Below are positions 12,709 through 27,736 of a stretch of DNA of 31,788 nt, piece after piece. The stretch spans positions 1-31,788 of the IMG/VR virus record IMGVR_UViG_3300008113_000607; one strand, 5' to 3'. The position numbers were made by a program, and so were the translations under genes. Source of the DNA: a virus. The notes below the pieces were generated by a model. That model had not been told where the DNA came from, ran no database searches, and saw nothing but the letters and a program-made list of their open reading frames with translations. The first letter of the stretch is position 1, and the number at the start of each line of letters is the position of its first letter.

Positions 12709-12913
12709 GTATCTAAAACAATTGATTAGCGACTTTAGAAGTAAAGACTTTAAGAATTTTGCTGGATATGTGTATACAACACTTCAGCGTGAAATTGACT
12801 CTGCTACCAATAATAAACAAAAGAATAAATATATATTGATACGAAAACAAATTTTAAGGTATATCGTTACTAACGAAGTGGCGGTAACCAAGGAGTTGCA
12901 AAATAAAAAGTGA
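12701..12913 (+). CDS. Small helical protein, unknown function
   Basis: A 70-residue basic protein, MSEYLKQLISDFRSKDFKNF at its start, predicted helical throughout and ending in ELQNKK. I start it at the ATG that overlaps the upstream gene by 8 bases; longer in-frame starts lie deep within that gene and are unlikely. The stop overlaps the next ATG as TGATG. The amphipathic pattern suggests a small structural or scaffold-like protein, but this is a guess. Confidence 0.65.
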   Translation: MSEYLKQLISDFRSKDFKNFAGYVYTTLQREIDSATNNKQKNKYILIRKQILRYIVTNEVAVTKELQNKK

Positions 12914-14154
12914 TGAAAAATTTCTTCCAGTTCTTATCCGAATCTGCTGCACAACAAGCAGCAAGAATGGGTCTTAAGGGTGATGGTCACGGTGGTTGGT
13001 ATGATCGCAACAGTGGTGAGTTTGTAGCAAAGACTGAAAAAGGAAAACTAGTCTTTTATAATAAGCGCCAAAAAGTTGGCGGAAAAGATCCAGAACAGAC
13101 TGAAACTGAAAAGAAATATTCCAATCCAAACTTTGTAGATCCTGCACTACAGCAGCAGAAGGAAGCTCCCCAACCAAAAGCAGAAAAGGGTGGGGAGCAG
13201 AAGGATGATGGTCCAAAGTTTGAACCTGTTAAAAAAACAAAAGGAACTTTGACCATTGCTTTTGGTCGTTTCAATCCACCTCATCTTGGTCACTTGCAGT
13301 TAATGGATACTGCTGCTGGTTCTGCTAAGAGTGATGGTGGGGACTATCTTATTGTTCCATCACGCAGTCAAGATCCAAAGAAGAATCCACTTGATGCTGA
13401 TACTAAAGTAAAAGTGATGATGGATATGTTCCCACAACATAAAAAGAATATTGCTAACGATGCGGCAACTAAAACCATCTTCGATGTTCTTAAGAAAGCA
13501 CATAACGACGGTTATGCTAATGTAAGAATAGTTGGTGGTGCTGATAGAGTTAAAGAATTTGAAAAACTTTCTGGAAGTTATAATGGTAAACTATATCAGT
13601 TCGATAAACTAGAAGTTGTTTCCGCTGGAGATAGAGATCCAGACTCCGAAGGTGTGGAAGGTCTTTCTGCCTCAAGAATGAGACTTGCTGCCGCAGAAAA
13701 TGACTTTAAGACATTTCGCTCTGGTATGCCTGGAGATATGAAACCAGAAAAGGCAAAAGAAATTTTCAATACAGTTCGCCGCTCTATGGGTATTAATGAA
13801 GAGTGGGGAATCTGGGAGATGGCTCCAAAGTTTGATTATCAGACTTTACGTGAGAACTATGTTGCTAAGACGATTTTCAAGATTGGTGAACTTGTAGAAA
13901 ATCTAAACACTGGACTTGTTGGACGTATTATTCGTCGTGGAACTAACTATCTTATTTGTGTTACCGAAGACAATATTATGTTCAAGTCCTGGATCAAAGA
14001 TGTGAATGAGGCGGTTGTAAATGGAACTGAACAAGGTGGAGTTCCTGCCGATCAACGTCTAGTTGGAACTGATTCCCATCGCAGATATGTTGAATCAATG
14101 GTCCCCGGTTCTAGTTGGGGTCTACAATTCATAAATAAATATAGGAAAAAGTAA
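12913..14154 (+). CDS. Nucleotidyltransferase-like protein with capsid-targeting-like N-terminus
   Basis: A 413-residue protein. The first residues MKNFFQFLSE resemble the T4 capsid-targeting peptide (MKTYQEFIAE), with a possible gp21-type cleavage after LSE. A module follows, DGHGGWYDRNSGEFVAKT (about 24-41), that I recall from cyanophage virion proteins, then a low-complexity linker. The catalytic-looking domain has the HIGH-type motif GRFNPPHLGH (118-127) and GLSASRMR (250-257), equivalent to the ISxTxxR of cytidylyl- or NMN-adenylyltransferases. The C-terminal part (290-413) is unassigned. I start at ATG 12913, overlapping the previous stop, rather than GTG 12910. Substrate is unknown. 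Confidence 0.82.
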   Translation: MKNFFQFLSESAAQQAARMGLKGDGHGGWYDRNSGEFVAKTEKGKLVFYNKRQKVGGKDPEQTETEKKYSNPNFVDPALQQQKEAPQPKAEKGGEQKDDGPKFEPVKKTKGTLTIAFGRFNPPHLGHLQLMDTAAGSAKSDGGDYLIVPSRSQDPKKNPLDADTKVKVMMDMFPQHKKNIANDAATKTIFDVLKKAHNDGYANVRIVGGADRVKEFEKLSGSYNGKLYQFDKLEVVSAGDRDPDSEGVEGLSASRMRLAAAENDFKTFRSGMPGDMKPEKAKEIFNTVRRSMGINEEWGIWEMAPKFDYQTLRENYVAKTIFKIGELVENLNTGLVGRIIRRGTNYLICVTEDNIMFKSWIKDVNEAVVNGTEQGGVPADQRLVGTDSHRRYVESMVPGSSWGLQFINKYRKK

Positions 14155-14171
14155 GTCTGTAACATCTTCCA

Positions 14172-15608
14172 ATGAAAACCAATATCTCTGAAGAACTTCC
14201 AGCAAGAAAGCACGCTCCTGCTGCTCCTGCTAATGGTGCTAAGAAAGCTGCTCCTTCTGCGAAGAAAGAAGGTGGCGGATCAACTGCCGAAAACTCTGAG
14301 AAAAGAATTCGTCAGGCAGTATATGACATCCGTTATCGTGCCAGAAGAGAGGACATCGATCTTAAACAAGCCTTCTCTCAGTACATGTCTAATAGTTCAT
14401 TGAACCCTGCTGAGAGGAAAGCAGTTAAGGATAAACTATTTGGAAAGAAGGTTGGTGTTACTGAGTCACATTTTGTGGATAGTGTAGACTGGGCAGTAGA
14501 CTCAGTTGCTGGTGCTCTGTACAGAGTATTTGTTGAGGGAGTGCAGAAAGAGGAAGTTATTAATCTTGAGTATGAGAATCAACTTGCTGAAGAAACTGAT
14601 AGAAAGTATAAGATAAGAGTTACTGATCCTAAGAGCGGTAAATCTTATGTTAGATATGCTACTCGTGAAAAGATCACTGCTTTGAGAGGTAGGGGTCTTA
14701 AAGTTGAGATGACTGAGTATGGTGAACCATATGAAGGTGAGCGTAAGAAAAAGAAAAAAGATATTCCAAATAACAAGAGTGGTTTAGACAAACCAGTACA
14801 TCCTTCCAAGAGAGATGGTGATGTAAATGATGATGGGAAGAAAGATAATACGGATTCTTACATCTATAATCGTCGTGACGCAATCCGCAGAGCAATGAAC
14901 AAAGAAGATTATCTTTGGTTTGAGGGAACCACTTCAACCGATGGTAAGAATAGAGTTCCTGCCGCTATTGATGTAGGTGTTAAGGTTGATAATTCCAAGA
15001 GAATTACAGTCTTCCCAGATGATGGTTCCAATCCACAAAATAATGGTGGAGTTATTAGTGCCGGTAATGAGATGGAAGGACCATTCCTTATTGAAAAGGC
15101 AAAGAGCAAAGCACAGCAACGCTTTATGGGTATGGTTTATGCACGCAAAAAGGGTGAGATGAAGAAAGGTGAGGCATCGCCTGAGGTTGAGGCTGCAGCA
15201 AAGGGTATGACTAAAAAGGAAGCAAAGAAGTATGCTAAAACCAAGCATAAGGGTCTTCCTGAAAATGTAAAAGAAGAGAATAGTAAAGCGTGTGAATGTT
15301 GTGGAGAAAATCCATGTGATTGTAAAGAGAAGAGAACTTACAGAGAACTTCTTAAGAATAAGTTTAGAGCAATGGGAATTAAGAATCCTATTATGCTCGA
15401 TGCTCCAACTGATGGAAAAGAAGTCATGAAGATTATGACTTCTTCAAGTGCTAAAATGAACTCTGAGGGTTATGATAGTAGATATGGTAGGGGTGAAAGG
15501 GGGGAACCAAAAAAAACTGAGAACCTTGAACTTTCTCCTGAGGCTCAAAAAAAGTATGATGCAATGATGAAAGAATTGAAAGCAAAATCCAATCTTAAAG
15601 GAGTCTGA
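14172..15608 (+). CDS. Putative virion/core protein with EF-hand-like and DUF3008-like segments
   Basis: A 478-residue lysine-rich protein of modular, partly disordered build. N-terminus MKTNISEEL, then an Ala/Lys-rich stretch. An EF-hand/dockerin-like loop DVNDDGKKDNTD lies at 217-228. A DUF3008-like segment runs about 308-370: SKAQQRFMGMVYARKKGEM through SPEVEAAAKGM to KHKGLPENV. A compact cysteine cluster CECCGENPCDC (374-384) could bind metal. There is no SD before the ATG, which is 17 bases after the previous stop. Related modular proteins are usually listed as structural in cyanophages; this is inference from layout and neighbours. Confidence 0.75.
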   Translation: MKTNISEELPARKHAPAAPANGAKKAAPSAKKEGGGSTAENSEKRIRQAVYDIRYRARREDIDLKQAFSQYMSNSSLNPAERKAVKDKLFGKKVGVTESHFVDSVDWAVDSVAGALYRVFVEGVQKEEVINLEYENQLAEETDRKYKIRVTDPKSGKSYVRYATREKITALRGRGLKVEMTEYGEPYEGERKKKKKDIPNNKSGLDKPVHPSKRDGDVNDDGKKDNTDSYIYNRRDAIRRAMNKEDYLWFEGTTSTDGKNRVPAAIDVGVKVDNSKRITVFPDDGSNPQNNGGVISAGNEMEGPFLIEKAKSKAQQRFMGMVYARKKGEMKKGEASPEVEAAAKGMTKKEAKKYAKTKHKGLPENVKEENSKACECCGENPCDCKEKRTYRELLKNKFRAMGIKNPIMLDAPTDGKEVMKIMTSSSAKMNSEGYDSRYGRGERGEPKKTENLELSPEAQKKYDAMMKELKAKSNLKGV

Positions 15609-15610
15609 TA

Positions 15611-15618
15611 CTAAATAT
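15611..15618 (+). promoter_or_regulatory. Late promoter-like CTAAATAT
   Basis: Late-type box 28 bases upstream of the gene at 15647, a normal distance for a T4 late promoter plus leader with the CGGAGGA ribosome site. Confidence 0.5.
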
Positions 15619-15646
15619 CCCAGGATACTCTCACACGGAGGACACC

Positions 15647-15826
15647 ATGGGTGCAGTCGTAGCGGTTGTAAAACCAATCGTGCTTCAACTTGCTTCACAT
15701 CCAGCAGTTAAGAATCTTGTTATTGAACTCCTTGAAAAGTATGTAAAATCCACCGACAACAGTATTGATGACATGGTTCTTCTTACTGTTAAGGAACTTC
15801 TCTTCAAGCCACAAGCTGAAGGATGA
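15647..15826 (+). CDS. Small protein, unknown function
   Basis: A 59-residue protein. The first half is hydrophobic/helical (MGAVVAVVKPIVLQLASHPA) and the second amphipathic (LVIELLEKYVKSTDNSIDDM). CGGAGGA lies 6-7 bases before the ATG. Its stop overlaps the next start (ATGA). The pair with the membrane protein downstream, ending at a terminator, looks like a two-gene unit. A peripheral membrane or holin-accessory role is conceivable but unsupported. Confidence 0.72.
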   Translation: MGAVVAVVKPIVLQLASHPAVKNLVIELLEKYVKSTDNSIDDMVLLTVKELLFKPQAEG

Positions 15827-15987
15827 TTACCTGCTTTCTAACTAACTGGGGAGTAACCATTGCTTTAGGTCTACTACTAACTGCTTCCGAGTGGTTAGCA
15901 AAAACAAAAAGATTTGAGGAGAATGGGTTGCTCGACCTTATTACTCACTTTTTAAAAATAGTTTTACGCAAGGAGACCAAGAAGTAA
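15823..15987 (+). CDS. Small single-pass membrane protein
   Basis: A 54-residue protein with one hydrophobic N-terminal segment, TNWGVTIALGLLLTASEWL (about 7-25), followed by a basic cytoplasmic-like tail ending in RKETKK. It is coupled to the upstream gene by ATGA. The final codons and stop lie within the terminator hairpin. Size and topology would suit a small membrane-acting phage protein. No family is recognised. Confidence 0.72.
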   Translation: MITCFLTNWGVTIALGLLLTASEWLAKTKRFEENGLLDLITHFLKIVLRKETKK

Positions 15988-16002
15988 AGGTCTCCTTTTT
16001 TT
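15972..16002 (+). terminator. Rho-independent terminator
   Basis: GGAGACC (15972-15978) pairs with GGTCTCC (15989-15995), followed by seven T. The stop codon of the upstream gene sits in the loop. The T tract runs directly into a TATAAATA late box. Confidence 0.93.
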
Positions 16003-16009
16003 ATAAATA
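16002..16009 (+). promoter_or_regulatory. T4-type late promoter TATAAATA
   Basis: A perfect late box immediately after a terminator and 30 bases before the ATG of the structural-type gene at 16040. AAGGAAA is the ribosome site. Confidence 0.75.
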
Positions 16010-16039
16010 TCAATATAAGAATTTTATAGGTAAGGAAAC

Positions 16040-16807
16040 ATGGCTCTTTGGGGCAATAAAGATTCGGTTTACTCAGACGGGACTATTGCCGTCAACCTTG
16101 GAACCAATACCGTAACCGGTACTACTGGCGTTGTAACCTTTACAACCGCAGGAATTAAGACAGGTGATGTAATAACTGTTGGAACTGGTGGAACTTACGG
16201 TCAGGCAGTTATCACTGGATTTACTTCAACTACGATTTCGATTGCAGGCACTGCTAACTTTATTTCTGGAATTACTACAATTCCTGCAGTAGCATATAAT
16301 GTTAACGAACAACCAATTTATACTTTAGGTGATAGTAGCTTTAATAATAGAAATGATTCTGCTGCTACGTTCCAAAATCTTGGGGTAACTGGAACTGCTA
16401 CAACTAATGCTGGAGTTGGAACTAATATTATCCCTGTTGTTGTTGGAACTAAGGATGTTATTGTTGGTGATGCAATTGTAAATAATGGAAATAATATTGT
16501 TATTTCAACAATTGGAGAAACCACAGTAAGTTTAGCATCTACTATTTCTGTCGGTATTAATACTGGAGATACAATTTCCTTCAGAAGAAAAACTGATGGA
16601 TATTTTAGAGATGTATTCGGTGTAGATCGTGTTGAAGTTGGTGTTGCCGCAACTACTAAATACGCTGTTGCTCACAGTGGTTGGGTTGGAATCATGACTT
16701 ATATTGATACTCACGGAAATCTAAGAGTTAAGAGTGAAGTATTAGTTGCTGGTGGAATTCTAACTACAACTGATGCTGCCGATGACGCACAATATCCAGA
16801 TACCTGA
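16040..16807 (+). CDS. Putative virion structural protein
   Basis: A 255-residue protein rich in Gly, Thr, Val and Ile, predicted all-beta. Two imperfect internal repeats are visible: GIKTGDVITVG...ITGFTSTTISIAGT and GDAIVNNGNNI...ISTIGETTVSLAST. The C-terminal SGWVGIMTYIDTHGNLRVKS is a motif I associate with a conserved cyanophage structural protein beginning MALWGNKD. Late promoter and AAGGAA ribosome site fit late expression. It is probably a small tail or head decoration protein; the exact position in the virion is unknown. Confidence 0.78.
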   Translation: MALWGNKDSVYSDGTIAVNLGTNTVTGTTGVVTFTTAGIKTGDVITVGTGGTYGQAVITGFTSTTISIAGTANFISGITTIPAVAYNVNEQPIYTLGDSSFNNRNDSAATFQNLGVTGTATTNAGVGTNIIPVVVGTKDVIVGDAIVNNGNNIVISTIGETTVSLASTISVGINTGDTISFRRKTDGYFRDVFGVDRVEVGVAATTKYAVAHSGWVGIMTYIDTHGNLRVKSEVLVAGGILTTTDAADDAQYPDT

Positions 16808-16813
16808 TAAAGT

Positions 16814-17185
16814 ATGAGATTTGATGAATTGAATGAGAGCAACTATTTGCTCTTTGCTATAAAATTCTACGATAATCCGCAGGCAGTTACAAAGGATGAC
16901 TTTGAATCTGATCTGAAACGGATTAGATATGTAAAACGTTTATTAAAAAAATATAAGAATACAGGTGAACTTAAAGTTCATCTTATATTAAACCACCTTA
17001 TAATACTGTTTAATGTCTTTAATGATGCGGCAGTTCCTCTTTTATTCTATAACTTAGAAGAGGAACTTTGGCCATCTATTAAAAGTTTTCTGATATTCTT
17101 AAAAAGAATTCCAGAATATCCAAAGACCGTAGTTGATGATATTGAGTCTGATGTAAACTGTTTAGAACAATTAAATGCACTATGA
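16814..17185 (+). CDS. Conserved-type T4-like phage protein (DUF7207-like)
   Basis: A 123-residue helical protein: NYLLFAIKFYDNPQAVTKDD, DLKRIRYVKRLLKKY, then LKVHLILNHLIILFNVFND and LFYNLEEELW. This pattern matches, from memory, a widespread T4-like phage family listed as DUF7207. The hydrophobic core helices are amphipathic rather than membrane spans. It starts six bases after the previous stop with no good SD. It overlaps the next gene by ATGA. Confidence 0.75.
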   Translation: MRFDELNESNYLLFAIKFYDNPQAVTKDDFESDLKRIRYVKRLLKKYKNTGELKVHLILNHLIILFNVFNDAAVPLLFYNLEEELWPSIKSFLIFLKRIPEYPKTVVDDIESDVNCLEQLNAL

Positions 17186-17394
17186 ATATCGACAGAGTTA
17201 TTGATATTGTTCGTCAGTATAAACTTGACGAAGAAATGACAGTTGGTGCTGGTGGTATTGCAGGTACTGTTGAAGCAGGAGATGATCCTCCTGTAGACTT
17301 GAGACGTAAAAAAGAAAGAGGGTGGAATATCTTTTTCAGAGGTCTTGTAAAAGCAAGTAGAAAGAAAAAGAAGAAAAATGTTCAGTCAAGCTAA
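17182..17394 (+). CDS. Small basic-tailed protein, unknown function
   Basis: A 70-residue protein with a short helix, then TVGAGGIAGTVEAGDDPPVD, a glycine-rich linker, and a strongly basic tail (RKKKKKN). Proteins with GGIAGT...DDPPVD occur beside DUF7207-like genes in cyanophages as far as I recall. It overlaps both neighbours (4 bases upstream, 17 downstream). Nucleic-acid binding by the tail is possible. Confidence 0.7.
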   Translation: MNIDRVIDIVRQYKLDEEMTVGAGGIAGTVEAGDDPPVDLRRKKERGWNIFFRGLVKASRKKKKKNVQSS

Positions 17395-17791
17395 AGTTGC
17401 GGTTCTTGAATCTAAACTCGATATCTATGAAGACTTGTCCCGCGAAATGTTATCAAAACTGGAGTCGGCAGTCGATAAGATTTCCGAAGGGAATTCACGC
17501 ATCGCAGCAATTCTTGCTAAGCATGACGAAAGAATAGAGCAAAGTATAAAGACAGACGATCTACTCATCAAGATGATTGATGAAGTTAAACAAGCAAGTG
17601 ATAGAGATCATAAGATTATTCACGAAAGAATTGATAGAATACAAGTAGAGATAAAAGGTTTATCTAAATTTAGATGGCAGGTTGGTGGTGTTTTGGCTGT
17701 TTCTGTTATCGCCATAAGCACTGTAAACGCATTTGTTCCAAGACTATTGACTGCTGCTCAAGCAGGGGTTAGAATAGAGCAGCAGAAATAG
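17378..17791 (+). CDS. Coiled-coil protein with C-terminal membrane segment
   Basis: A 137-residue protein. Residues 5-95 form a long heptad-patterned helix (LESKLDIYEDLSREMLSKLE through IDRIQVEIKGLSKF). A hydrophobic segment, GGVLAVSVIAISTVNAFVP (about 103-121), follows, with a short tail. It resembles a cyanophage family (DUF7201-like, from memory). The layout suits a membrane-anchored coiled coil such as a spanin- or antiholin-like part, which is untested. It starts inside the previous gene. Confidence 0.75.
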   Translation: MFSQAKVAVLESKLDIYEDLSREMLSKLESAVDKISEGNSRIAAILAKHDERIEQSIKTDDLLIKMIDEVKQASDRDHKIIHERIDRIQVEIKGLSKFRWQVGGVLAVSVIAISTVNAFVPRLLTAAQAGVRIEQQK

Positions 17792-17801
17792 CATTCGCAT
17801 A

Positions 17802-18773
17802 ATGGATTTGGTTGACTCCAAGTATATTGGACTCGTTTCGTCACGCCTTCAAAAATTTAAGAGGGTAAAGTCGGATCTATACAACTTCCGATGTCCTATC
17901 TGTGGGGACTCCTCACGTAATAAAAATAAGGCGAGGGGATATTTGTATCCTGTGAAGAATAACACCAACTTTAAATGTCATAATTGTGGTGCTAGTCTGT
18001 CTTTTAATAACTTCCTTAAGGAACTGGACCCTACGCTTCATAAGCAATATACGCTTGAGAAGTTTAGGGATGGTCATACTGGTAAGGGATTTGTTGTAGA
18101 AGCACCAAAACTGGAGTTTAGTAAACCAACTTTCAAAAAGAGATTAGATCTTCCTAAGGCATCGGAAGTTCCTACTGCTAGAGAATACTTGGAGAAAAGA
18201 AAACTCAACCCAGAAAAGTTTTACTTCGCTAACAAATTCAAAGAGTGGACTAATTCCCAAAAACAAACATTCGACACCATAGGTGGTGATGAATGTCGTA
18301 TTATTATACCAATGTATGGTAAAGACAATGATCTTATTGGTTTTCAGGGAAGAAGTCTAGTTCCTAACTCTGTTAAATATATCACTGTGATGCTTGACGA
18401 GGAGGCACCGAAAATTTATGGACTTAATACAATCGATGAGAAACTACCAGTCTACGTGGTTGAAGGACCCTTCGACAGCACTTTCGTCAACAATAGTGTG
18501 GCTCTGTGTGGTAGTGATGGTGATGTTCGTTGTCTTGAAGGAAGTAGTATTGTTTTTGTTTATGATAATGAGCCCCGCAATCGAGAAATCGTCAATCGCA
18601 TTAGCAAATGCATATCAAGAGGCGAAAGCGTCGTCATCTGGCCAAGCGGAATCGTAGACAAGGACATCAATGATATGGTCCTCTCTGGACTTAATGTTAT
18701 GGATGTGATAGAATCAAATACCTACTCAGGTTTAGAAGCAAAAATTAAGTTTAACAACTGGAAGAAAATATGA
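17802..18773 (+). CDS. 61: DNA primase gp61
   Basis: Primase that makes RNA primers for lagging-strand synthesis with helicase gp41. The 323-residue protein begins with a zinc ribbon: CPIC (31-34) and CHNC (59-62) around RNKNKARGYLYP. A TOPRIM-like core follows with VYVVEGPFDS (catalytic Glu) and IVFVYDNEPRN (acidic pair). Length is close to T4 gp61 (342). It lies apart from gp41, as is common in cyanophages, and its stop overlaps the nrdA start by ATGA. Confidence 0.93.
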   Translation: MDLVDSKYIGLVSSRLQKFKRVKSDLYNFRCPICGDSSRNKNKARGYLYPVKNNTNFKCHNCGASLSFNNFLKELDPTLHKQYTLEKFRDGHTGKGFVVEAPKLEFSKPTFKKRLDLPKASEVPTAREYLEKRKLNPEKFYFANKFKEWTNSQKQTFDTIGGDECRIIIPMYGKDNDLIGFQGRSLVPNSVKYITVMLDEEAPKIYGLNTIDEKLPVYVVEGPFDSTFVNNSVALCGSDGDVRCLEGSSIVFVYDNEPRNREIVNRISKCISRGESVVIWPSGIVDKDINDMVLSGLNVMDVIESNTYSGLEAKIKFNNWKKI

Positions 18774-21067
18774 GCAATGGAACTAAAGTTGTCAAGAGAA
18801 ACGGTAAGACTGAACCTCTTGACTTAAATAAACTCCACGTTATGGTGGAAGAAGCGTGTAAAGATCTAGCAAATGTATCTGCATCGCAAGTTGAAATGCA
18901 GTCTGGTATTCAATTTTACGATGGCATTACCACTGCAGAAATTCAGGAGATTCTGATCCGTTCTGCTTCTGACCTGATTGACCTGGAGCATCCCAACTAT
19001 CAATTTGTTGCTGCTCGTCTGCTCCTGTTTGCTACTCGCAAGCAGTTGTATGGACGTATGCACGAAATTCCGAACCTGAAACAACATGTAGAACGTTGCG
19101 TTGAAAAGGGTGTATATGATGAAGAAATTCTCAATCTTTACACTGAAGAAGATTTTGATAAACTTCAGTCGTTTATTGATCATCAGCGTGACTATCTGTT
19201 CACTTATGCAGGTCTACGTCAGGTCGTTGATAAGTACCTCGTGCAGGATAGAAGCACTGGGGCACTTTACGAAACGCCACAATTTATGTACCTTTTGATT
19301 GCGGCAACTATCTTCTCTAAATATCCAAAAGAGACTCGTTTGGATTACGTTAAGAGGTATTATGACGCAATCTCCAAACACAAAATCAACATCCCAACCC
19401 CCATCATGGCGGGAGTGCGGACACCACTTAGACAATATGCTAGCTGTGTCCTTATTGATGCTGATGACACCCTCGATAGTATCTTTACTAGCGATATGGC
19501 TATTGGCCGATATGTTGCACAAAGGGCGGGCATCGGTATCAACGCAGGTCGCATCAGGGGCATCAACGCTAAAATCAGAGGCGGAGAAGTTCAGCACACA
19601 GGCGTTATCCCTTTCCTCAAAAAGTTTGAAGCGACTGTCCGATGCTGCACTCAAAATGGCATCAGAGGTGGATCAGCGACTGTCCACTTCCCGATCTGGC
19701 ACCAAGAAATAGAAGATATCATTGTTCTGAAGAATAATAAAGGAAGTGAAGATAATCGTGTCCGTAAACTAGATTATTCCATTCAAATTTCCAAGTTGTT
19801 CTATGAGCGTTTCATCAAAAACGAAAACATCTCACTCTTCTCTCCACACGACGTTCCTGGTCTGTATGATGCTTTTGGTACTGATGGATTTGATGAGTTA
19901 TACAATGTTTATGAATCAGATAAGTCTATTCCAAGAAAGACTATCGGAGCTCAAGAACTCTTTTTGGATATTCTGAAAGAGCGTGCTGAAACTGGTCGCC
20001 TCTACATTATGAATATCGACCACTGCAACTCTCACTCCTCCTTTATGGATAAAGTTGAGATGAGCAATCTGTGTCAGGAGATCACTCTGCCTACTAAACC
20101 ACTTCAACATATTGATGATACTGATGGCGAAATTGCTCTTTGCATTCTTTCTGCTGTTAACATTGGAAAAATTAGGGATCTTGAGGATCTTGAAGTTCTC
20201 TGTGATCTTGCTGTTAGGGGTCTTGATGAACTCATTGATTTTCAAGGATACCCAGTCAAGGCAGCAGAGATCGCTACAAAGGCACGTCGCTCCCTTGGAA
20301 TTGGTTATATTGGTTTAGCACACTATCTCGCCAAGCACGGGCACTCATACGACTCTCAGGGTGCCTGGAACGCGGTTCACGACCTCACTGAGGCATTCCA
20401 ATACTACCTCATTCAGGCAACTGTAAACCTTGCTAAAGAGAAAGGTGCTTGTGAATATTCACATCGAACCAAGTATGGTAATGGAATTCTTCCCATTGAT
20501 ACATACAAGAAGGACGTTGACGAAATCGTCCCCAACGAGTTAAAATATGATTGGGAAGGTCTTAGAACACAGGTTAAGCAATACGGAGTACGGAACTCAA
20601 CATTGTCCGCACAAATGCCTTCAGAGAGCAGTTCCGTTGTGTCAAACGCAACAAATGGAATCGAACCTCCCCGTGCATTCCTGTCCGTTAAGAAGTCAAA
20701 GAAAGGAGTCCTTAAGCAGATTGTCCCCCAATATCAATCTCTTAAAAATGCTTATACGCTTCTTTGGGATATGGAGTCCAATCGTGGTTATATTAATGTT
20801 GTTGCTGTGATGCAAAAGTTCTTCGACCAAGCAATCAGCGGCAACTGGTCTTATAATCCAACTCAATATCCTAACAATGAGATCCCCATTTCGGTATGGG
20901 CACAAGACCTTCTGACTACATATAAGTACGGTTGGAAAACCAGTTATTATCAAAACACTTACGACAGTAAGAATGATGAGGTTGAAGAAACTACTCAATC
21001 TCTAAATGATTTAATCTCTCAACTAGAAAACGCCGAGGAGGAAGATTGTGAGTCTTGTAAGATTTAA
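18770..21067 (+). CDS. nrdA: Ribonucleotide reductase class I alpha subunit NrdA
   Basis: Reduces ribonucleoside diphosphates to deoxyribonucleotides for phage DNA synthesis. The 765-residue protein has an N-terminal ATP-cone (about 5-95), ASCVLID (E. coli C225), SNLCQE (N437, C439 and E441 equivalents), ALCILSAVN (C462), YYQNTYD (tyrosines of the radical path) and a C-terminal CESCKI. The terminal cysteine pair is separated by two residues, whereas E. coli has CESGACKI. Length and motifs look intact. The partner nrdB follows after 22 bases but is disrupted. Confidence 0.97.
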   Translation: MSNGTKVVKRNGKTEPLDLNKLHVMVEEACKDLANVSASQVEMQSGIQFYDGITTAEIQEILIRSASDLIDLEHPNYQFVAARLLLFATRKQLYGRMHEIPNLKQHVERCVEKGVYDEEILNLYTEEDFDKLQSFIDHQRDYLFTYAGLRQVVDKYLVQDRSTGALYETPQFMYLLIAATIFSKYPKETRLDYVKRYYDAISKHKINIPTPIMAGVRTPLRQYASCVLIDADDTLDSIFTSDMAIGRYVAQRAGIGINAGRIRGINAKIRGGEVQHTGVIPFLKKFEATVRCCTQNGIRGGSATVHFPIWHQEIEDIIVLKNNKGSEDNRVRKLDYSIQISKLFYERFIKNENISLFSPHDVPGLYDAFGTDGFDELYNVYESDKSIPRKTIGAQELFLDILKERAETGRLYIMNIDHCNSHSSFMDKVEMSNLCQEITLPTKPLQHIDDTDGEIALCILSAVNIGKIRDLEDLEVLCDLAVRGLDELIDFQGYPVKAAEIATKARRSLGIGYIGLAHYLAKHGHSYDSQGAWNAVHDLTEAFQYYLIQATVNLAKEKGACEYSHRTKYGNGILPIDTYKKDVDEIVPNELKYDWEGLRTQVKQYGVRNSTLSAQMPSESSSVVSNATNGIEPPRAFLSVKKSKKGVLKQIVPQYQSLKNAYTLLWDMESNRGYINVVAVMQKFFDQAISGNWSYNPTQYPNNEIPISVWAQDLLTTYKYGWKTSYYQNTYDSKNDEVEETTQSLNDLISQLENAEEEDCESCKI

Positions 21068-21089
21068 GACAGGGTTGGAGGGAAAACCA

Positions 21090-22120
21090 ATGGTTGATTC
21101 CATGACAGTTTTCAACTCCAACGAGGTTGATACAAAGAAACAACCAATCTTCAAAAGGATCGCAGCGACTATCATATGCTGCGTCCAGAACAAAAGCATA
21201 TCTTTACCAGCAATCTGAAGTATCAGATTATGCTGGATTCCGTTCAGGGACGTGGACCTGGTATGGCGTTCGCGCCCTACTGTTCTCTCCCAGAACTGGA
21301 AGCTTGCATGAAAGTGTGGGAATTCATGGAGATGATTCACTCACGTTCCTACACCTATATCATCAAAAACATTTATTCAGACCCATCTGAGGTTTTTGAT
21401 ACTATCCTCAGAGAGGATCGGATTATGGAGCGTGCTGTGAGCGTTACGCAAGCGTATAACGACTTCATTAACGCAGCACATCAATATGATAATGGAAATG
21501 ATTGGTTGCACGCATTAGAGCAAGTCCCCACCGCACTAGAAGGAAGGTATGAACTCAAGCGCAAACTATTCAGAGCAGTTGCAAACGTTAATATTCTTGA
21601 AGGCATTCGCTTTTACGTGTCATTTGCTTGCAGTTTTGCATTTGGCGAACTCAAACTTATGGAAGGAAGTGCAAAAATCATCTCACTAATTGCTAGAGAT
21701 GAAAACCAGCACCTAGTCATCACCCAGAACATCCTTAAGAACTGGATGAATGGAGATGATCCAGAAATGGCGCGTATCGCCAAAGAAGAAGAACAGTGGA
21801 TCTACAAGACCTTTGAGAACGCTGTAAACCAGGAAAAACTTTGGGCAGAGTATCTGTTCAAGGATGGATCTATGATTGGTCTGAATGACAAACTGTTACA
21901 GCAGTATGTTGAATGGATTGCGAACCGTAGAATGAAGGCAATTGGATTCAAACCACTTTATGATATTTCCGCAAAGAATAATCCTCTTCCTTGGACAGAG
22001 CACTGGATTTCTTCAAAGGGTCTTCAAGTTGCACCACAAGAAACTGAGGTCGAATCATATATTGTTGGAGGAATTAAGCAAGATGTTACCAAAGACTCTT
22101 TTACAGGATTCCAATTATGA
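21090..22120 (+). pseudogene. nrdB: Ribonucleotide reductase beta subunit NrdB, internal deletion with frame break
   Basis: The start is well marked: GGAGGG about 8 bases before ATG 21090, then MVDSMTVFN...KKQPIF. After PIF the frame breaks; that frame ends at 21218 after 42 codons. Another frame resumes directly with KDRSDYHMLRPEQKHIF and runs intact to 22120. Against E. coli NrdB about 38 residues are missing, including the equivalent of W48 of the radical-transfer chain. All iron ligands and the radical tyrosine remain (LDSVQGR, EMIHSRSY, LEGIRFY, ARDENQH), as does the C-terminal tyrosine in ESYIVGG. A shortened product from ATG 21176 would lack an SD. The lesion may be real or an assembly artefact. 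Confidence 0.88.
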
Positions 22121-22235
22121 TGAGTGGGTCGAACAAGAAATTATAAATGCTTATCAAGAAGCAGCAGAATGTGATGAATTCTTGTTCGGAGACTATGATT
22201 ATTGCAAAGAATGGTTGAAGGAAACGGAGGGGTAA
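22083..22235 (+). CDS. Small acidic protein after nrdB
   Basis: A 50-residue acidic protein starting MLPKTLLQDSNYDEW and ending CDEFLFGDYDYCKEWLKETEG, with many aromatic and acidic residues. ATG 22083 has GGAGG 11 bases upstream and overlaps the nrdB end by 38 bases. The stop codon sits in the loop of the terminator. Being the last gene of the nrd unit it might assist nucleotide metabolism, but nothing in the sequence shows that. Confidence 0.62.
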   Translation: MLPKTLLQDSNYDEWVEQEIINAYQEAAECDEFLFGDYDYCKEWLKETEG

Positions 22236-22250
22236 TACCCTCCTTTTTTT
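22226..22250 (+). terminator. Rho-independent terminator of the nrd unit
   Basis: GGAGGG (22226-22231) and CCCTCC (22238-22243) with loop GTAATA, followed by seven T. The last T begins a TATAAATA late box, the same terminator-late promoter junction as at 15972-16009. Confidence 0.93.
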
Positions 22251-22257
22251 ATAAATA
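22250..22257 (+). promoter_or_regulatory. T4-type late promoter TATAAATA
   Basis: A perfect late box 21 bases upstream of ATG 22279, right after the terminator. It marks the start of a late unit with two large low-complexity proteins. Confidence 0.75.
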
Positions 22258-22278
22258 CTAAAAAAAGTGTCGATAGAG

Positions 22279-24366
22279 ATGAAGTCCTTTAAGGAAATAT
22301 TACATGAACAGGGTAGAAGTAAGAAGGAATTCAAAGATCCTCTTAGAAACAAAAACATTGAGATTAGAATAGATAGACAACCTTCTTCTCAACCATCATA
22401 TCAAGGTAGAGCTGCTAGACGAGCAGCAAAAATTGCTGTTCAACAAGCAGCAACAACACCTTCTGCTCAGAGAGTTGCTGATACTGCCTTATCTGCCAAA
22501 GAGCAGCAGGCGCAAGCAAAAGGATATAGATCGCCAGAAGGTAACATTACTCAGCGTGGTGTTGAAACTTATGCTACCCGTAGAGGATCACTTGGATATG
22601 GTGATCCAGGAAAGGACCCATCAAAGTATGGTATAGACCCAAGACAAGCAGCAGCAGATGCTAGGGAAAGAAGTAGAACTGCTTCTCAGGGTGTAGGTGC
22701 CGAAAGAAGAGCGGCAAGAAGAGGAATTAAGATAGATATTGCTAAGATTGAAAAAAATTATCCATCACCATCAACTGCTAAACAGACTGGATTTGGTGAA
22801 TTTAGTAGAAGAGCATCTACTACCACAACGGATTTAAAAACTGGTAGAGCAAATATTTCAACACCAGAGATGTCTGCAAAGGACACCAAGTTTTTCAAAG
22901 GTTTAGAACCAGACCCAGTAAAAAGAACTACTGCTAAAATCGATGCTGCTATTCATCAGCAGGCAGACGATTTGATGGGTAAGAAAGGACCACAACAATC
23001 GTCAGGATATAGTCAGCAGGGTCTGAAGGACCTCGGCAAGGCAGTTCAAGATGTAGATACAAAACCAGCAAAATCCTCTCCAACACCCAAGGTAAGAGGA
23101 GGACAGGGTTCTGGTTCTACAACCACTAGAGGTAGTGGTCCTAAACTACCAGATGTATCTAAACCATCTAAACCAACTGGTGCTTCTAGGGTAACCTATG
23201 GTAGAGGTGGAACACCTCCAGCCAATACCTTTAAAGCATTTAGTCAGCAGGCATCAGTTCAAGCAGCAAAACCAGGGTCTACTGGTCCTACATCACAAGC
23301 AGTTCAGAAAATTGATACTGCTAGAAGATTATCCACCCCTTCAGGAAGATTATCTAATCTAGCATCAAAAACAAAATCCATTGGTGGTAGGCTAACTCTT
23401 CCTGTTACCGCTGGTATTGAAGGTGTATATGATATAACAGCACCAGAAAAACAAGCATCAATTGGAAGAACTGCTGCTAAAAAAGGTTCTCAACTATATG
23501 CAGCTTCTCAGGGAGCTAAACTAGGAGCAAACATTGGCGGTCTAGTTGGTCCTTGGGGAAGAATTGCTGGTGGACTCATTGGTGGTGGTCTTGGTTATGC
23601 CGGTGCTGGTGGTGCTTTTGAAACCTTAGCAGGTCAAACTCCAACCGAGAAAAAACTTGCTAGACAACAAAATCTAGACACTCAACAGATGAGGAAACCA
23701 TCTGTTGAACCTGGTTCTTTCGGCACCAGATCACTTCAAACAGTTGTTAAAGATCCAAGAACTGGTAAAGATACTGTAGGTTATCTTACAAAACAAAGTT
23801 ATCAGGGTCAGGAATATACAGGATATAAGGCGGCAGACACTTCTAATGCTGCTAGAGCACGTACATCATCTAATCCTTTTGAAAGGATTGGAAGAACTCT
23901 CTTTCCAGATGCTTATACCAAGAGTGATGAGGAAAACATGAGGAAAAAAGTTCGTGAAATTAAAAAAATTCAAGGATTACCAGAGTCTGTTAACAGGAGG
24001 AAACCAATGAAGACTTATTCACAGTTTATGGAACAAGCGTATCAACAGAGCGGACCATCTCAATGGTCTCAGCGTGCAACAGAAAAATTTTTGAGAGGGT
24101 CTGATTATCTTGCTAATCTTGCAGGAAAAGGCATTGGTAGAGTAACTGATTTTGGAGGTTCTCTTGCATCTGGTATTGTTAAAGGTGCTACTGGAGGTAG
24201 AATAGATCCAGAAAAAATCGGTCATGAAGCAGAAAAATGGATTAACAAAAAAGGTAGAGAAGTAAGAGATACTGAAGTAAGAGCAGCAGACACACTATCA
24301 AAAACTAAGATGGAGTTAATTCCACCTGGTTCCATGTATCCATCAACATTCAAAAAAGGACGCTGA
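22279..24366 (+). CDS. Large low-complexity putative capsid-core protein
   Basis: A 695-residue protein beginning MKSFKEILHEQ, similar to the T4 capsid-targeting peptide with a possible cleavage site LHE. Residues up to about 370 are rich in Ala, Gln, Arg, Gly, Ser and Thr and appear disordered and basic. A glycine-zipper-like hydrophobic segment follows, KLGANIGGLVGPWGRIAGGL and GYAGAGGAFETLAG (about 414-452). A second methionine start with its own SD lies in frame at 24007. GTG 22267 would add four residues, but ATG 22279 gives the targeting-like start. Probably packaged or injected with DNA; this is inference. Confidence 0.75.
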   Translation: MKSFKEILHEQGRSKKEFKDPLRNKNIEIRIDRQPSSQPSYQGRAARRAAKIAVQQAATTPSAQRVADTALSAKEQQAQAKGYRSPEGNITQRGVETYATRRGSLGYGDPGKDPSKYGIDPRQAAADARERSRTASQGVGAERRAARRGIKIDIAKIEKNYPSPSTAKQTGFGEFSRRASTTTTDLKTGRANISTPEMSAKDTKFFKGLEPDPVKRTTAKIDAAIHQQADDLMGKKGPQQSSGYSQQGLKDLGKAVQDVDTKPAKSSPTPKVRGGQGSGSTTTRGSGPKLPDVSKPSKPTGASRVTYGRGGTPPANTFKAFSQQASVQAAKPGSTGPTSQAVQKIDTARRLSTPSGRLSNLASKTKSIGGRLTLPVTAGIEGVYDITAPEKQASIGRTAAKKGSQLYAASQGAKLGANIGGLVGPWGRIAGGLIGGGLGYAGAGGAFETLAGQTPTEKKLARQQNLDTQQMRKPSVEPGSFGTRSLQTVVKDPRTGKDTVGYLTKQSYQGQEYTGYKAADTSNAARARTSSNPFERIGRTLFPDAYTKSDEENMRKKVREIKKIQGLPESVNRRKPMKTYSQFMEQAYQQSGPSQWSQRATEKFLRGSDYLANLAGKGIGRVTDFGGSLASGIVKGATGGRIDPEKIGHEAEKWINKKGREVRDTEVRAADTLSKTKMELIPPGSMYPSTFKKGR
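23995..24000 (+). promoter_or_regulatory. Consensus SD inside a gene, before ATG 24007
   Basis: AGGAGG with 6 bases to an in-frame ATG, inside the 22279-24366 gene. It is stronger than the ribosome site of the gene's own start. The codons here (NRRKP) give no reason for this exact sequence. Confidence 0.7.
24007..24366 (+). CDS. Nested in-frame gene product with capsid-targeting-like start
   Basis: A possible separate 119-residue product from an internal start in the same frame as the larger gene. It begins MKTYSQFMEQA, nearly the T4 internal-protein leader MKTYQEFIAEA. The rest has AGKGIGRVTDFGGSLASGIV, a glycine-rich amphipathic segment, and a charged C-terminus. Either two products arise from one gene, or two once-separate genes have become fused by loss of a stop. 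The perfect SD favours real initiation here. Confidence 0.6.
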   Translation: MKTYSQFMEQAYQQSGPSQWSQRATEKFLRGSDYLANLAGKGIGRVTDFGGSLASGIVKGATGGRIDPEKIGHEAEKWINKKGREVRDTEVRAADTLSKTKMELIPPGSMYPSTFKKGR

Positions 24367-24367
24367 A

Positions 24368-25603
24368 ATGGAAAACTTTAACGAAAAATACGACAGACTA
24401 ACAACTGGTGGAGTAACCAGATTTAGATATCCTATTCCAGGAAAACTTCCTGGATGGATGAGTGGTATGGAAGATGCTCTTAAAAGAGCTGCTGGTGAAC
24501 CAACCAGTGCATTTATGACTCCTCAACAGATTAACAAACTCAGACAGTCTAGTGGTCAGAGTCCATATACTAGAGCAGAATTTGAAACTTTTGGTATTAA
24601 TCCTGCTGGACCACGTAATGTTCCTGTACAGGGATGGGATGAACCAGGGGCAACACCTCCAAAACAGGATCCAAAACAGGATCCAAAGCAAGATCAAAAA
24701 CCAGATCAAAAACCAGATCAAAAACCAAAAACTCATGATGAATTGAGAGCGGAACTTAATAAACTTTTCCCATTACCAACATCAGAACCAGCAAAACCTG
24801 CAGCAGAAGCAAAGCCTGCAGCAGAAGCAAAGCCTGCAGCAGAAGCAAAGCCTGCAGCAGAAGTAAAGCCTGCAGCAGAAGCAAAACCTGAAGCAACAAA
24901 AACAAAACCCGCTCCACAGGTATCACCTTCTCAACGTTACCGCGATCTAATCAAACAAGGTAACACAAAAGAAGCAGAAGCAGTTGGTAAGGAAATATGG
25001 GCTAAAAAGTATGCTGGTAAGTTTACTGTCCCTAGCGTTGAGAAGGGTGGATCCAGAATTGATGTGTCAACTGCTCCCCAAAAAGAGCTGTTCAAGGCTG
25101 CTGAGAAAAAATACAATGTTCCAAGAGTTCAGTCAATCAAACAAGATCTTGAAGATCTGAAGAACATTAGTGTATCGAATACATCCTTAGAACCTGCATC
25201 TAGCATACAGGCACAAACACCAAAACTCAAGACAAAGGGGGATCCAGGTTGGGCAAATAATGCAAGATATAATGTTAAAGAAGGATATGACGCCTATGAC
25301 TTAGTTCTTGAGTATCTCCTCTCTGAGGGGCACGCAGACACCGTAGAAGAAGCGCATTACGTTATGATGCAGATGGATGCTGAATATATCCAGAGCATTG
25401 TTGAAGGGTTTCCAATTGAACCAGAAGGTGAAGTTATCGAAGGTGTAATGCCAGAACCTATTAATCCTGAGGCTCATAGAAAAAATCAACGCATTGAAAA
25501 AGCAACTCAACTGAAGAAAGGCACTTCTGGTGCCGAATCTGATGCTGCTGGTGCTGCTGTTAAAAGACTTGGTGGTTCTGGAATAAGTCTTCCCCCAGTC
25601 TGA
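24368..25603 (+). CDS. Modular low-complexity putative core/virion protein
   Basis: A 411-residue protein. The start MENFNEKYDRLTTGG is followed by a Pro/Gly-rich part, a KQDP/QKPD tandem tract (about 98-118) and an AEAKPA tract (about 142-177). Then comes SPSQRYRDLIKQGNTKEAEAV, a short basic helical region. The C-terminal YDAYDLVLEYLLSEGHADTV (about 306-325), continued by an EEAHYVMMQM helix, is a module I recall from several cyanophage head-associated proteins. It starts one base after the upstream stop. A strong terminator ends the unit. Confidence 0.75.
   Translation: MENFNEKYDRLTTGGVTRFRYPIPGKLPGWMSGMEDALKRAAGEPTSAFMTPQQINKLRQSSGQSPYTRAEFETFGINPAGPRNVPVQGWDEPGATPPKQDPKQDPKQDQKPDQKPDQKPKTHDELRAELNKLFPLPTSEPAKPAAEAKPAAEAKPAAEAKPAAEVKPAAEAKPEATKTKPAPQVSPSQRYRDLIKQGNTKEAEAVGKEIWAKKYAGKFTVPSVEKGGSRIDVSTAPQKELFKAAEKKYNVPRVQSIKQDLEDLKNISVSNTSLEPASSIQAQTPKLKTKGDPGWANNARYNVKEGYDAYDLVLEYLLSEGHADTVEEAHYVMMQMDAEYIQSIVEGFPIEPEGEVIEGVMPEPINPEAHRKNQRIEKATQLKKGTSGAESDAAGAAVKRLGGSGISLPPV
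24659..24727 (+). repeat. 12-bp tandem repeat (coding)
   Basis: Nearly six units of CCAAAACAGGAT and variants, encoding KQDP/QKPD repeats in frame with the host gene. The register keeps the frame, so unit number can vary without breaking the protein. Confidence 0.92.
24791..24898 (+). repeat. 18-bp tandem repeat (coding)
   Basis: Six units of GCAAAGCCTGCAGCAGAA, three of them identical, encoding AKPAAE repeats. The near identity suggests recent expansion by slippage or recombination. Confidence 0.95.
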
Positions 25604-26160: not shown

Positions 26161-26311
26161 TTGGGCAGTTGACCGCATTCATACTCTTTGTGAGGAAAAT
26201 ATTGAGAATGCCCATGCGATTCAATCAGAATTCAGTGAGTGGTTGGATCCAGATATTTTAGATCATGATATTTTCTCATTAGAGTTTATAGGAGACAAAG
26301 ATGACACTTGA
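26123..26311 (+). CDS. Small acidic protein, unknown function
   Basis: A 62-residue acidic, mostly helical protein: MVTLEQTLQTTHDWAVDRIH, then EWLDPDILDHDIFSLEFIGD. It begins within the nuclease gene and ends 11 bases into the C39 peptidase gene, which suggests coupling across the three. It has no recognised family and no membrane segment. Confidence 0.6.
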   Translation: MVTLEQTLQTTHDWAVDRIHTLCEENIENAHAIQSEFSEWLDPDILDHDIFSLEFIGDKDDT

Positions 26312-26972
26312 CCTTCATAACTTTTTCAAGTATTACGACGAAAACAATTCAAATCATGTTGCGGCAGTTCAGTGGTTAGAAGATAACCTACCTGCTAACT
26401 TCATGGATGATTCAGAGACTGACTGGATTGGTATCTTTAGAACGAAACCACCAACTCCAGAAGTTCTTGCAGTTCCATACTATAACCAAGTAGACAACTA
26501 CAGAGATGCACATAGAACTTGCAACTCTTCATCGTGCGCTATGTGTTTATCTTTCCTCAAGCCAGGAAGCATTAAAGGCGACGATGAGTATGTTAAGAAA
26601 GTATTTGAGATTGGTGATACAACGGACCACGCCGTTCAGACGAAAGTTTTGGCGGCTTATGGAGTTAAGTCACACTTTAGTTACAATCTATCTTTTGCTG
26701 ATATTGATAAAAGTTTGGACGCTGGGAAGCCAGTTGTTATTGGCATCCTTCATAGGGGTTCTCTTTCTGCACCTACTGGTGGGCATATGTGTGTCGTCAT
26801 TGGTAAAACCCCAGATGGAAAGGGATATTACATAAACGATCCATACGGTTCTCTCAACGACAACTACACTGGACCTGTGACGAATGGTAAGAAGACCATT
26901 TATACCAAAGCAGTTCTTAAGCACCGCTGGTGTCCAGGAGGGAACGATGGATGGGGCAGAATCTTCGATTAA
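26301..26972 (+). CDS. C39-like cysteine peptidase with shared N-terminal module
   Basis: A 223-residue two-part protein. Residues 4-31 (DLHNFFKYYDENNSNHV plus AAVQWLEDNLP) form a module found nearly unchanged in the lysozyme two genes on. The papain-like C39-type domain has oxyanion Q63, nucleophile C74 in RTCNSSS, H162 in GGHMCVVIG and N179/D180 in INDPYG. It lacks a signal peptide and an ABC-transporter part. Plausible roles are cleavage of peptidoglycan cross-links, as an endolysin-type amidase/peptidase, or processing of a virion protein. AGGAG precedes the ATG. Confidence 0.82.
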   Translation: MTLDLHNFFKYYDENNSNHVAAVQWLEDNLPANFMDDSETDWIGIFRTKPPTPEVLAVPYYNQVDNYRDAHRTCNSSSCAMCLSFLKPGSIKGDDEYVKKVFEIGDTTDHAVQTKVLAAYGVKSHFSYNLSFADIDKSLDAGKPVVIGILHRGSLSAPTGGHMCVVIGKTPDGKGYYINDPYGSLNDNYTGPVTNGKKTIYTKAVLKHRWCPGGNDGWGRIFD

Positions 26973-27093
26973 TTTTAAAAGAAAGATGCTCAAGGTGATT
27001 AAAGACCTCACAAATAATGGAAAGCATGTAGAAGCAAGTCAACTGTATCAAAAGTATTTCGGAGACAACAATGGCACGAATCGACCTTCATAA
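26947..27093 (+). CDS. Tiny protein bridging peptidase and lysozyme genes
   Basis: A 48-residue basic helical protein with FKRKMLKVIKDLTNNGKHVE and LYQKYFGDNN. AGGAGG lies 5-6 bases before ATG 26947. It overlaps the peptidase gene by 26 bases and the lysozyme gene by 23, so its ends share coding space with both. The KRKMLKVIxDLTxNGKxxEAxxLYxKYF pattern resembles small cyanophage proteins I recall. Confidence 0.68.
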   Translation: MDGAESSINFKRKMLKVIKDLTNNGKHVEASQLYQKYFGDNNGTNRPS

Positions 27094-27736
27094 CTTTTTT
27101 AAGTTCTACGACGAAAGAAACCCTAACCATGTGAAAGCAGTTCAGTGGTTAGAAGATAATCTTCCCGTCAAATATTTGGAAGATAATATTGACTGGGCAG
27201 AAATCTATAGAGGAAAAAAGTCTAGTGCTGCACCAGCCCCTGCTGCTGCAGCTCCTGTAACTGCGAGTGGTGATGTCCCTATGATGGGCATCAAGTTGAT
27301 CAAAGAGTTTGAGGGATGTCATTTAAATGCATACCCTGACCCTCTTTCTGGTGGACTTCCAATCACTATTGGTTGGGGTTCTACCCGTAAGAAAGATGGT
27401 TCTCCTTTCAAACTTGGTGAATCAATCACTCAACAGGAAGCTGATGACCTACTGATTAGTCAGTGTAAGAGTCAGTTTATTCCAGCACTTCAAAAGATTC
27501 CTCATTGGAATGAAATGTCAGATGGTAAAAGAGGCGCTCTATTATCTTTCGCTTACAATCTTGGTGCTGGGTTTTACGGTGGCGATAATTTTAATACCAT
27601 TACTAAGCGACTTAAAAATAAGGAGTGGGATTTAGTCCCTGATGCTCTTTATCTCTATCGTAATCCTGGTTCAAATGTAGAGGCAGGACTCGCAAGACGC
27701 CGCAAGGCAGAAGGCGAAGCGTGGAAGAAAGGATAA
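27071..27736 (+). CDS. GH24 phage lysozyme (endolysin) with shared N-terminal module
   Basis: A 221-residue protein. The N-terminal module (5-32) is 24/28 identical to that of the C39 peptidase two genes upstream. An Ala/Pro linker (51-66) follows, then a T4-lysozyme-type domain: E81 in KEFEG, D90 in AYPD, T99 in ITIGWG and LLSFAYNLGAGF further on. It cleaves the MurNAc-GlcNAc bond of host peptidoglycan. No signal peptide, so release would need a holin or the enzyme is virion-borne. GGAGA precedes the ATG. Confidence 0.92.
   Translation: MARIDLHNFFKFYDERNPNHVKAVQWLEDNLPVKYLEDNIDWAEIYRGKKSSAAPAPAAAAPVTASGDVPMMGIKLIKEFEGCHLNAYPDPLSGGLPITIGWGSTRKKDGSPFKLGESITQQEADDLLISQCKSQFIPALQKIPHWNEMSDGKRGALLSFAYNLGAGFYGGDNFNTITKRLKNKEWDLVPDALYLYRNPGSNVEAGLARRRKAEGEAWKKG

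Follow-up and report, generated by a model that had tools for sequence, protein, structure and literature searches.

The internal proteins of bacteriophage T4 differ from one another but share an N-terminal targeting sequence, which has been suggested as a route by which T4-like phages take up various proteins (PMC9026906, PMC3012670). In this leader, targeting is reported to depend mainly on residues 4 and 7 and processing on residues 8 and 10, and a T4 leader carrying Asp at position 10 was described as targeted but not processed (PMC9026906). Here we consider such leaders in a 31,788-nucleotide stretch of viral DNA (IMG/VR record IMGVR_UViG_3300008113_000607, positions 1 to 31,788; hereafter the window), a 31.8-kb fragment of a T4-like cyanophage without head genes. 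The window encodes one protein with orthologues known from virions (a nucleotidyltransferase at 12913), one strong candidate (an open reading frame, ORF, at 22279) and one further leader inside the latter. We read the leader as a T4-type capsid-targeting sequence, whose carriers would be docked on the scaffold, cut by a gp21-type protease and injected, and place the probability of this reading at roughly 0.83. The principle itself is already known from T4, while its occurrence in cyanophages is without report in the literature searched: our search, which covered open-access sources and left most subscription journals outside, found neither the leader in cyanophages or on the enzymes described below, nor any study of T4 gp61.1, a small protein to which we return.

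Two leaders in the window start ORFs and exceed chance, namely MKNFFQFLSE (12913..12942, plus strand; predicted cut after E10, F-L-S-E) and MKSFKEILHE (22279..22308, plus strand; predicted cut after E10, I-L-H-E). The first-pass annotation had listed two more, of which the one at 24007 has no ORF of its own and the one at 14172 does not fit. Under two patterns that were both devised after the leaders had been seen (the strict one permits I at 7 and Q at 10), a motif scan of the 43 window genes tested found the same number of matches: two for the strict pattern (12913 and 22279), with 0.0012 expected from shuffling residues 2-40 and none of 5000 shuffles reaching two, and likewise two for the looser pattern, with 0.16 expected (P 0.012). 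As a positive control, the strict pattern at the DNA level matched only ipII, ipIII and 61.1 in T4, and the looser pattern added gp2, gp24, Alt and two ORFs left unassigned (41039 and 58534); read backwards, the pattern gave no match in 38 records. The strict DNA pattern matched twice in P-SSM2 and twice in S-SCSM1. The earlier likening of these leaders to a T4 leader of "internal proteins and Alt" was inexact, as ipII and ipIII start MKTYQEFIAE, whereas Alt starts MELITELFDE.

The protein at 12913 (12913..14154, plus strand; 413 residues) is a leader-tagged nucleotidyltransferase (PF01467, CoaD/NadD-like fold) with orthologues in the virions of four cyanophages. Among the best 80 of 450 related stretches, confirmed in IMG/VR, the strict leader was present in 67 and a near variant (e.g. 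MKSFFKFLSE) in 12, the start of locus L346 lying outside the reading. The conservation set consisted of 62 distinct N-termini (76 of the 80 loci agreed with a spacing rule), and, in a selection where M followed by K/R was demanded and MKNFFQFL was one of six search peptides, residues 1, 2, 4 (F), 7 (F) and 10 (E) were invariant in all 62. Residue 8 was L or I in every case, while residues 3, 5, 6 and 9 varied; the consensus of this type is MK[SN]FFQFLxE. At the sequence level, conservation of the cyanophage leader falls on the functional residues of T4, and the fixation of E10 and L/I8 with a free residue 9 is as expected if a protease reads positions 8 and 10. The proposed LxE-type cut motif holds for 12913 (62 of 62) and for 22279 (L-H-E at 8-10), though not for 24007, which has M-E-Q.

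The leader of 12913 outlasts the remaining N-terminus. Alignment of the window protein begins only at residue 95 with S-CREM2 ORF154 and at residue 113 with S-SZBM1_140; nonetheless, leaders start both (MKNFSSFLTE and MRFRQFIIE, respectively). In a structural model of moderate confidence (mean predicted local distance difference test, pLDDT, of 68), the product would consist of a short helix, a small beta module, a disordered linker and a CoaD/NadD-like nucleotidyltransferase domain, with MKNFFQFLSE modelled at low confidence as a separate short helix (residues 4-9). Fold comparison recognised the nucleotidyltransferase domain only; the small beta module had no standout structural match among the best 50 listed, and a sequence search of solved structures with the whole product gave nothing at an expect value (E) of 0.01. 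This small module, which follows the leader (window 12970-13065, residues ~20-50; DGHGGWYD...EFVAKT..GKL), is also present in the Cas9 and the APH-like kinase of S-CREM2 (hmmsearch E 2.7e-8 and 1.6e-7, respectively).

The claim that a T4-type capsid-targeting sequence, little recognised in cyanophages, marks a set of proteins is supported both by these conserved residues and by published virion proteomes, in which leader-bearing proteins are over-represented. Mass spectrometry placed orthologues of 12913 in virions of S-SCSM1 (SSCSM1_91; PMC9602691), S-SM1 (GC190; PMC3037559), S-CREM2 (ORF154; PMC10665884) and S-SZBM1 (S-SZBM1_140; PMC9146016), and around SSCSM1_91 the S-SCSM1 record labels 89, 90, 92, 93, 95 and 97 as virion proteins. 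Besides endolysins, the non-structural virion proteins of S-CREM2 are an S-adenosylmethionine (SAM) hydrolase, an APH-like kinase, a cytidylyltransferase and Cas9. The first three start MKDFDSFLEE, VKRFDAFLTE and MKNFSSFLTE, and Cas9 has an internal leader, RFASFMAEA, from residue 18; the virion-detected ORF13, ORF15 and ORF136 also bear the leader or a variant. All six annotated S-CREM2 genes found with the pattern are virion proteins, for the annotated part read, which leaves out 50001-100000 and 150001-174876 and, with the latter, a short match at 174336.

Across the proteomes of the four phages, 8 of 10 leader-bearing proteins were detected (~5e-5), in a set chosen after the data had been seen. 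The criteria were F/L near 4, F at 7, [ILMF] at 8 and E at 10; the leader of S-SZBM1_140 is shorter by one residue. These ten are S-CREM2 ORF6, 13, 14, 136 and 154 (the last added by hand, because starts lying far inside an open frame escaped the scan), SSZBM1_140 and 191, SSCSM1_30 and 91, and SSM1_190. With the looser pattern, 10 of 15 were detected (5e-5), the additional five being S-CREM2 ORF15, SSZBM1_57, SSZBM1_80, SSCSM1_96 and SSM1_022 (gp5), which is reported as detected in S-SM1 (PMC3037559). Cas9, with its internal leader, is outside both sets. Counting by family, which removes the fourfold count of the orthologous nucleotidyltransferase, 5 of 6 leader families were detected (P 0.002). 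It should be considered that 48 virion labels were counted in the S-SCSM1 record as compared to 45 in the paper (~5e-5 either way), and that the S-SM1 gene total is approximate. S-SCSM1 alone, with only two strict leader genes, was too small to serve as an enrichment test. Several looser-pattern matches were dropped as carriers, namely P-SSM2 uvsX, SSZBM1_57 and 80 (an endonuclease V and a small hypothetical protein) and SSCSM1_96 (DUF7207-type), none of them virion-labelled where labels exist. In five of five relatives of S-CREM2, [KE/D]LxxFLxE is retained by the ORF13 homologue and, after SRWxxW, [FL]xxF[IL]xEA by the gene in the place of Cas9. Among the kinases of these relatives, only that of S-CRM01, for which a virion kinase has been reported (cited in PMC10665884), begins with a clear leader (MISFDQFLSE); in S-B68, S-H34, S-N03 and MA01 the kinase start has drifted.

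The leader is also modular, being found on many otherwise dissimilar proteins. When MKTFx[EQ]F[ILMF]xE was back-translated and scanned across IMG/VR, at least 120 stretches matched, as compared to one for a control of the same codons in another order, and 132 of 134 matches were preceded by fewer than 30 open codons (median 6), i.e. they almost always start ORFs. Among the matches listed, 131 proteins of at least 50 residues fell into 64 clusters when compared after residue 13 (single linkage, BLASTP E 1e-4, by which distant kin may still be hidden); some of the loci are near-identical copies, and in at least one case a single contig contributed two. A second scan with MKTFxQF, leaving residues 8-10 free, gave at least 120 stretches and 64 for its control. 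In the 87 newly fetched loci, 77 of 88 matches start an ORF of at least 40 residues near its beginning, as do 6 of 64 control matches (Fisher 2e-23). This set is biased against E10, since earlier loci were relisted under their old names; E stood at 9 or 10 in 68 of the 77 ORF-start matches and at 9 in 48. On one contig (L057, 6505-9422), four leader-bearing genes lie within 3 kb, each belonging to a separate BLAST cluster. A Pfam survey of 54 cluster representatives and 29 further proteins identified the ADP-ribosyltransferase families ART-PolyVal and ADPrib_exo_Tox, together with zeta toxin, GNAT acetyltransferase, HNH and glucosaminidase families, as well as SAM lyase, lytic transglycosylase, cytidylyltransferase and several DUFs. 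Most of these families are represented by one or two proteins, and most of the proteins surveyed matched no listed family; a single Phage_capsid match may be a chance carrier.

Leaders keep company with the T4-type head machinery. Among all contigs of at least 60 kb in the matches listed, gp21 (PF03420) and gp23 (PF07068) occur together in 11 of 20 leader contigs, as compared to 1 of 11 controls (Fisher 0.02); one of the 20, L196, lacks E at both 9 and 10 and has probably been matched by chance. The protease gp21 is present in seven of seven reference phages, and L-x-E stands at the place of the known T4 gp23 cut in all seven gp23s read, with the form F-L-x-E recurring. S-TIM5, with no match for Gp23, yielded no leader with a DNA pattern that picks up one or more in every one of five T4-like cyanophages; it was accordingly dropped as a further T4-like case.

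By analogy with T4, F4 and F7 (I7 in 22279) would dock the newly made protein on the scaffold core of the prohead. Once the shell closes, a gp21-type protease would cut after [L/I]-x-E10 and leave the mature protein free inside the head, from which it would enter the host along with the DNA. The better surviving alternative is that the protein docks on the scaffold core through its leader and is packed with the leader still in place, as the Asp10 leader of T4 illustrates (PMC9026906). Agreeing with this are the many leaders in which E stands at 9, with or without a second E at 10 (48 of 77, from the set with a bias against E10), and the M-E-Q of 24007; the invariant E10, the L/I at 8 and the free residue 9 in the 62 N-termini, together with the F-L-x-E form at gp23 sites, speak for cutting, and we consider retention of the leader improbable. 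Least credible, at long odds, is an amphipathic N-terminus kept for another reason (translation or membrane contact) with virion detection due to carry-over, for although the proteome papers allow carry-over and the enrichment is modest without S-CREM2, conservation falls on the targeting and cutting residues of T4, the same peptide sits on 64 BLAST clusters, leader proteins are over-represented in virions and S-TIM5 lacks both Gp23 match and leader.

The interpretation of the leader as a targeting and cutting signal has several points against it that need to be considered. Concerning the proteomes, the nucleotidyltransferase is among the proteins reported as not detected in S-PM2 virions (PMC3037559) and is not named in the 14-protein proteome described for S-CREM1 (PMC9964418). 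The detection of S-CREM2 ORF13 relied on one peptide, and without S-CREM2 the enrichment drops to 3 of 5 (P 0.03) or, with the looser pattern, 4 of 9 (P 0.04). Two leader carriers, SSCSM1_30 and SSZBM1_191, which form one small family, were undetected, and many virion proteins have no leader. Concerning the patterns, the looser one also matches P-SSM2 uvsX, and the strict DNA pattern has no match in S-CREM2, S-SZBM1, S-SM1 or HTVC008M, the leaders there coming from looser amino-acid patterns. Concerning the machinery, no gp21 match is found within the window, which is a fragment; neither gp21 nor gp23 was seen in 9 of the 20 long leader contigs, which may be fragments; and the T4-type pelagiphage HTVC008M (KC465899) possesses gp21 although none of its ORFs carries a convincing leader, which means that the leader device is not universal. 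Finally, the proteome authors allow carry-over of abundant enzymes into virion preparations and are unsure whether the NMNAT, the kinase, the SAM hydrolase and Cas9 are packed or carried over (PMC9602691, PMC10665884). That these enzymes share a leader at the residues used by T4 argues for packing.

The 695-residue ORF at 22279 (22279..24366, plus strand) lies downstream of nrdB, in the same place as the leader-bearing PSSM2_211 of P-SSM2. Its leader has F4 and the protease motif L-H-E at 8-10, with I rather than F at 7, a position where T4 Alt and gp24 have L. We consider this ORF a strong candidate for a head-packed protein, based on its leader, on its position after nrdB as for PSSM2_211, and on a stretch of the neighbouring ORF at 24368 that is shared with the virion protein SSCSM1_89. 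A phage collection contained no homologue of its product at E 1e-3. In IMG/VR, only four further contigs (L001-L004) carry it, and they agree with the window throughout the ORF and the 700 bp preceding it; the frame is therefore not a one-off assembly slip. Its second, internal leader, MKTYSQFMEQ (24007..24366, plus strand), had been taken for the start of an independent ORF but is codon 577 of the 22279 ORF, in frame and with no stop between, and is a candidate internal start (119-residue product) or internal processing point. It is the sole strict-pattern match among 174 internal methionines of window genes, and a Shine-Dalgarno-like AGGAGG (23995..24000, plus strand) stands 6 nt before its ATG; of eight plus-strand AGGAGG, just this one falls 4-12 nt before a listed start, in a list that included 24007. 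The unique match and the well-placed AGGAGG make an internal translation start here likely, if unproven. M-E-Q at 8-10 departs from the L/I-x-E motif, though E at 9 is frequent among the leaders collected (48 of 77). The 24007 leader may instead be the leftover of a gene fusion, with only the long protein made, as the single open frame without a stop, identical in all five contigs, would allow; the placement of the AGGAGG, the intact leader residues and the annotated in-frame internal start of T4 gene 21 make this somewhat less probable than not.

Of the neighbouring genes, the 411-residue protein next to the 22279 ORF (24368..25603, plus strand) has no leader; its residues 285-346 match the virion-labelled SSCSM1_89 and residues 303-355 match PSSM2_212, and Pro-Ala-Ala-Glu-Ala-Lys repeats are found within it at ~24750-24930. 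The 478-residue protein with DUF3008 (14172..15608, plus strand), parts of which match the virion-labelled S-SCSM1 92 and 93, was rejected as a leader carrier, as its MKTNISEEL has no aromatic residue at 4 and no F at 7; its P-SSM2 homologue starts MSKNIVEELPARKHAP (MSKNIVEEL). A 255-residue protein (16040..16807, plus strand) matches the virion-labelled SSCSM1_95 and is also without a leader. In general, the gene order is that of P-SSM2 (gp44, dam, gp62, regA, hsp20, gp43, uvsX, gp41, mazG, nucleotidyltransferase, gp61, nrdA, nrdB), with 58-89% identity across the aligned parts. The adenine methylase gene dam (2726-3444) seems to be divided between two ORFs that overlap in different frames and each match P-SSM2 dam. 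A C39-type peptidase (26301-26972) and a lysozyme (27071-27736) have a common N-terminal module, LHNFFKxYDExNxNHVxAVQWLEDNLP.

A further small protein may point to a second device. T4 gp61.1 (NC_000866 18966-19130, locus L391) has the leader MKTFKEFIKE and also resembles the mature N-terminal arm of T4 gp23. In the window, a basic 70-residue protein (17182..17394, plus strand), whose N-terminus ends LDEE and continues GAGGIAGTVEAGDDPPV, is placed like T4 61.1, S-CREM2 ORF160 and SSCSM1_97, the latter two being virion-detected. One gene separates it from gp61 (17802), as in S-SCSM1, S-CREM2 and P-SSM2, while T4 61.1 adjoins 61. All are small, have a lysine-rich end and lie beside gene 61; the cyanophage counterparts (17182, SSCSM1_97 and S-CREM2 ORF160) differ from T4 gp61.1 in their N-termini. 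Smith-Waterman scores against the gp23 arm of the same phage were 69 for T4 61.1, 95 for S-CREM2 ORF160 and 83 for SSCSM1_97 in a version extended upstream of its annotated start, each reached by none of 2000 shuffles. SSCSM1_97 scores slightly higher (88) against the S-CREM2 arm, T4 61.1 scores 20-27 against four cyanophage arms, and for the P-SSM2 counterpart the best match among five arms is that of its own phage (3 of 2000 shuffles). The 17182 protein matches this P-SSM2 counterpart by sequence and place; its own gp23 is outside the window, and against five gp23 arms its best result (38 of 2000 shuffles) is not convincing. SSCSM1_97 (MK867354.2 93055-93306, locus L010) may be annotated too late, as the upstream frame gives MDKTDRVIQLIRE, ending in a protease-like site immediately ahead of the start now annotated. 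At E 0.1, sequence like that of 61.1 is present in 1402 phage records, although some of these matches are capsid genes.

Taken together, we lean towards a wider view, in which the leader would be a general T4-type head-loading code beyond coliphages. It would mark a large and rapidly changing arsenal (Cas9, SAM hydrolase, kinases, NMNAT-like nucleotidyltransferase, ADP-ribosyltransferases, zeta-toxin-like kinases, acetyltransferases and nucleases), whose members would be loaded, trimmed and injected. The second device would copy the mature N-arm of the phage's own gp23, making gp61.1 and its cyanophage counterparts small head proteins, unrecognised even in T4. The question of what a marine phage injects thereby becomes a sequence scan, with the leader offering a simple guess at the proteins carried into the host. 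The leader is also relevant to how proteins are localised in the T4 scaffolding core, a point called mysterious in a 2023 review (PMC9958956), and directs attention to the little-studied T4 gene 61.1.

Compared with other described systems, the head proteins of the giant phage SPN3US are alike in carrying N-terminal propeptides thought to target the prohead and to be cut by a gp21-related protease, although several exceed 100 residues and only that of gp45 is reported to be of T4 length (PMC5694885). The polyvalent, head-packaged effectors described in PMC9503650 belong to overlapping classes, with ADP-ribosyltransferase (ART) domains foremost, and are also predicted to be head-packed; there, packaging is deduced from fusions and gene neighbourhoods, and here from an N-terminal signal. 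T4 Alt, an enzyme that is packed into the head and injected, has a short propeptide at its N-terminus that gp21 removes (PMC9026906, PMC9958956), and leader-bearing ART-like proteins are found in IMG/VR; the start of Alt itself is different, as noted above. A further close likeness is with T4 IPII and IPIII. The cyanophage cargo differs from these in including enzymes, other leader forms have E at 9, and an SRWxxW extension precedes the core on S-CREM2 Cas9 and on the gene in its place in five relatives; both systems, nonetheless, use ten N-terminal residues with an aromatic residue at 4, F7, I/L8 and E10, as a module on differing cargo.

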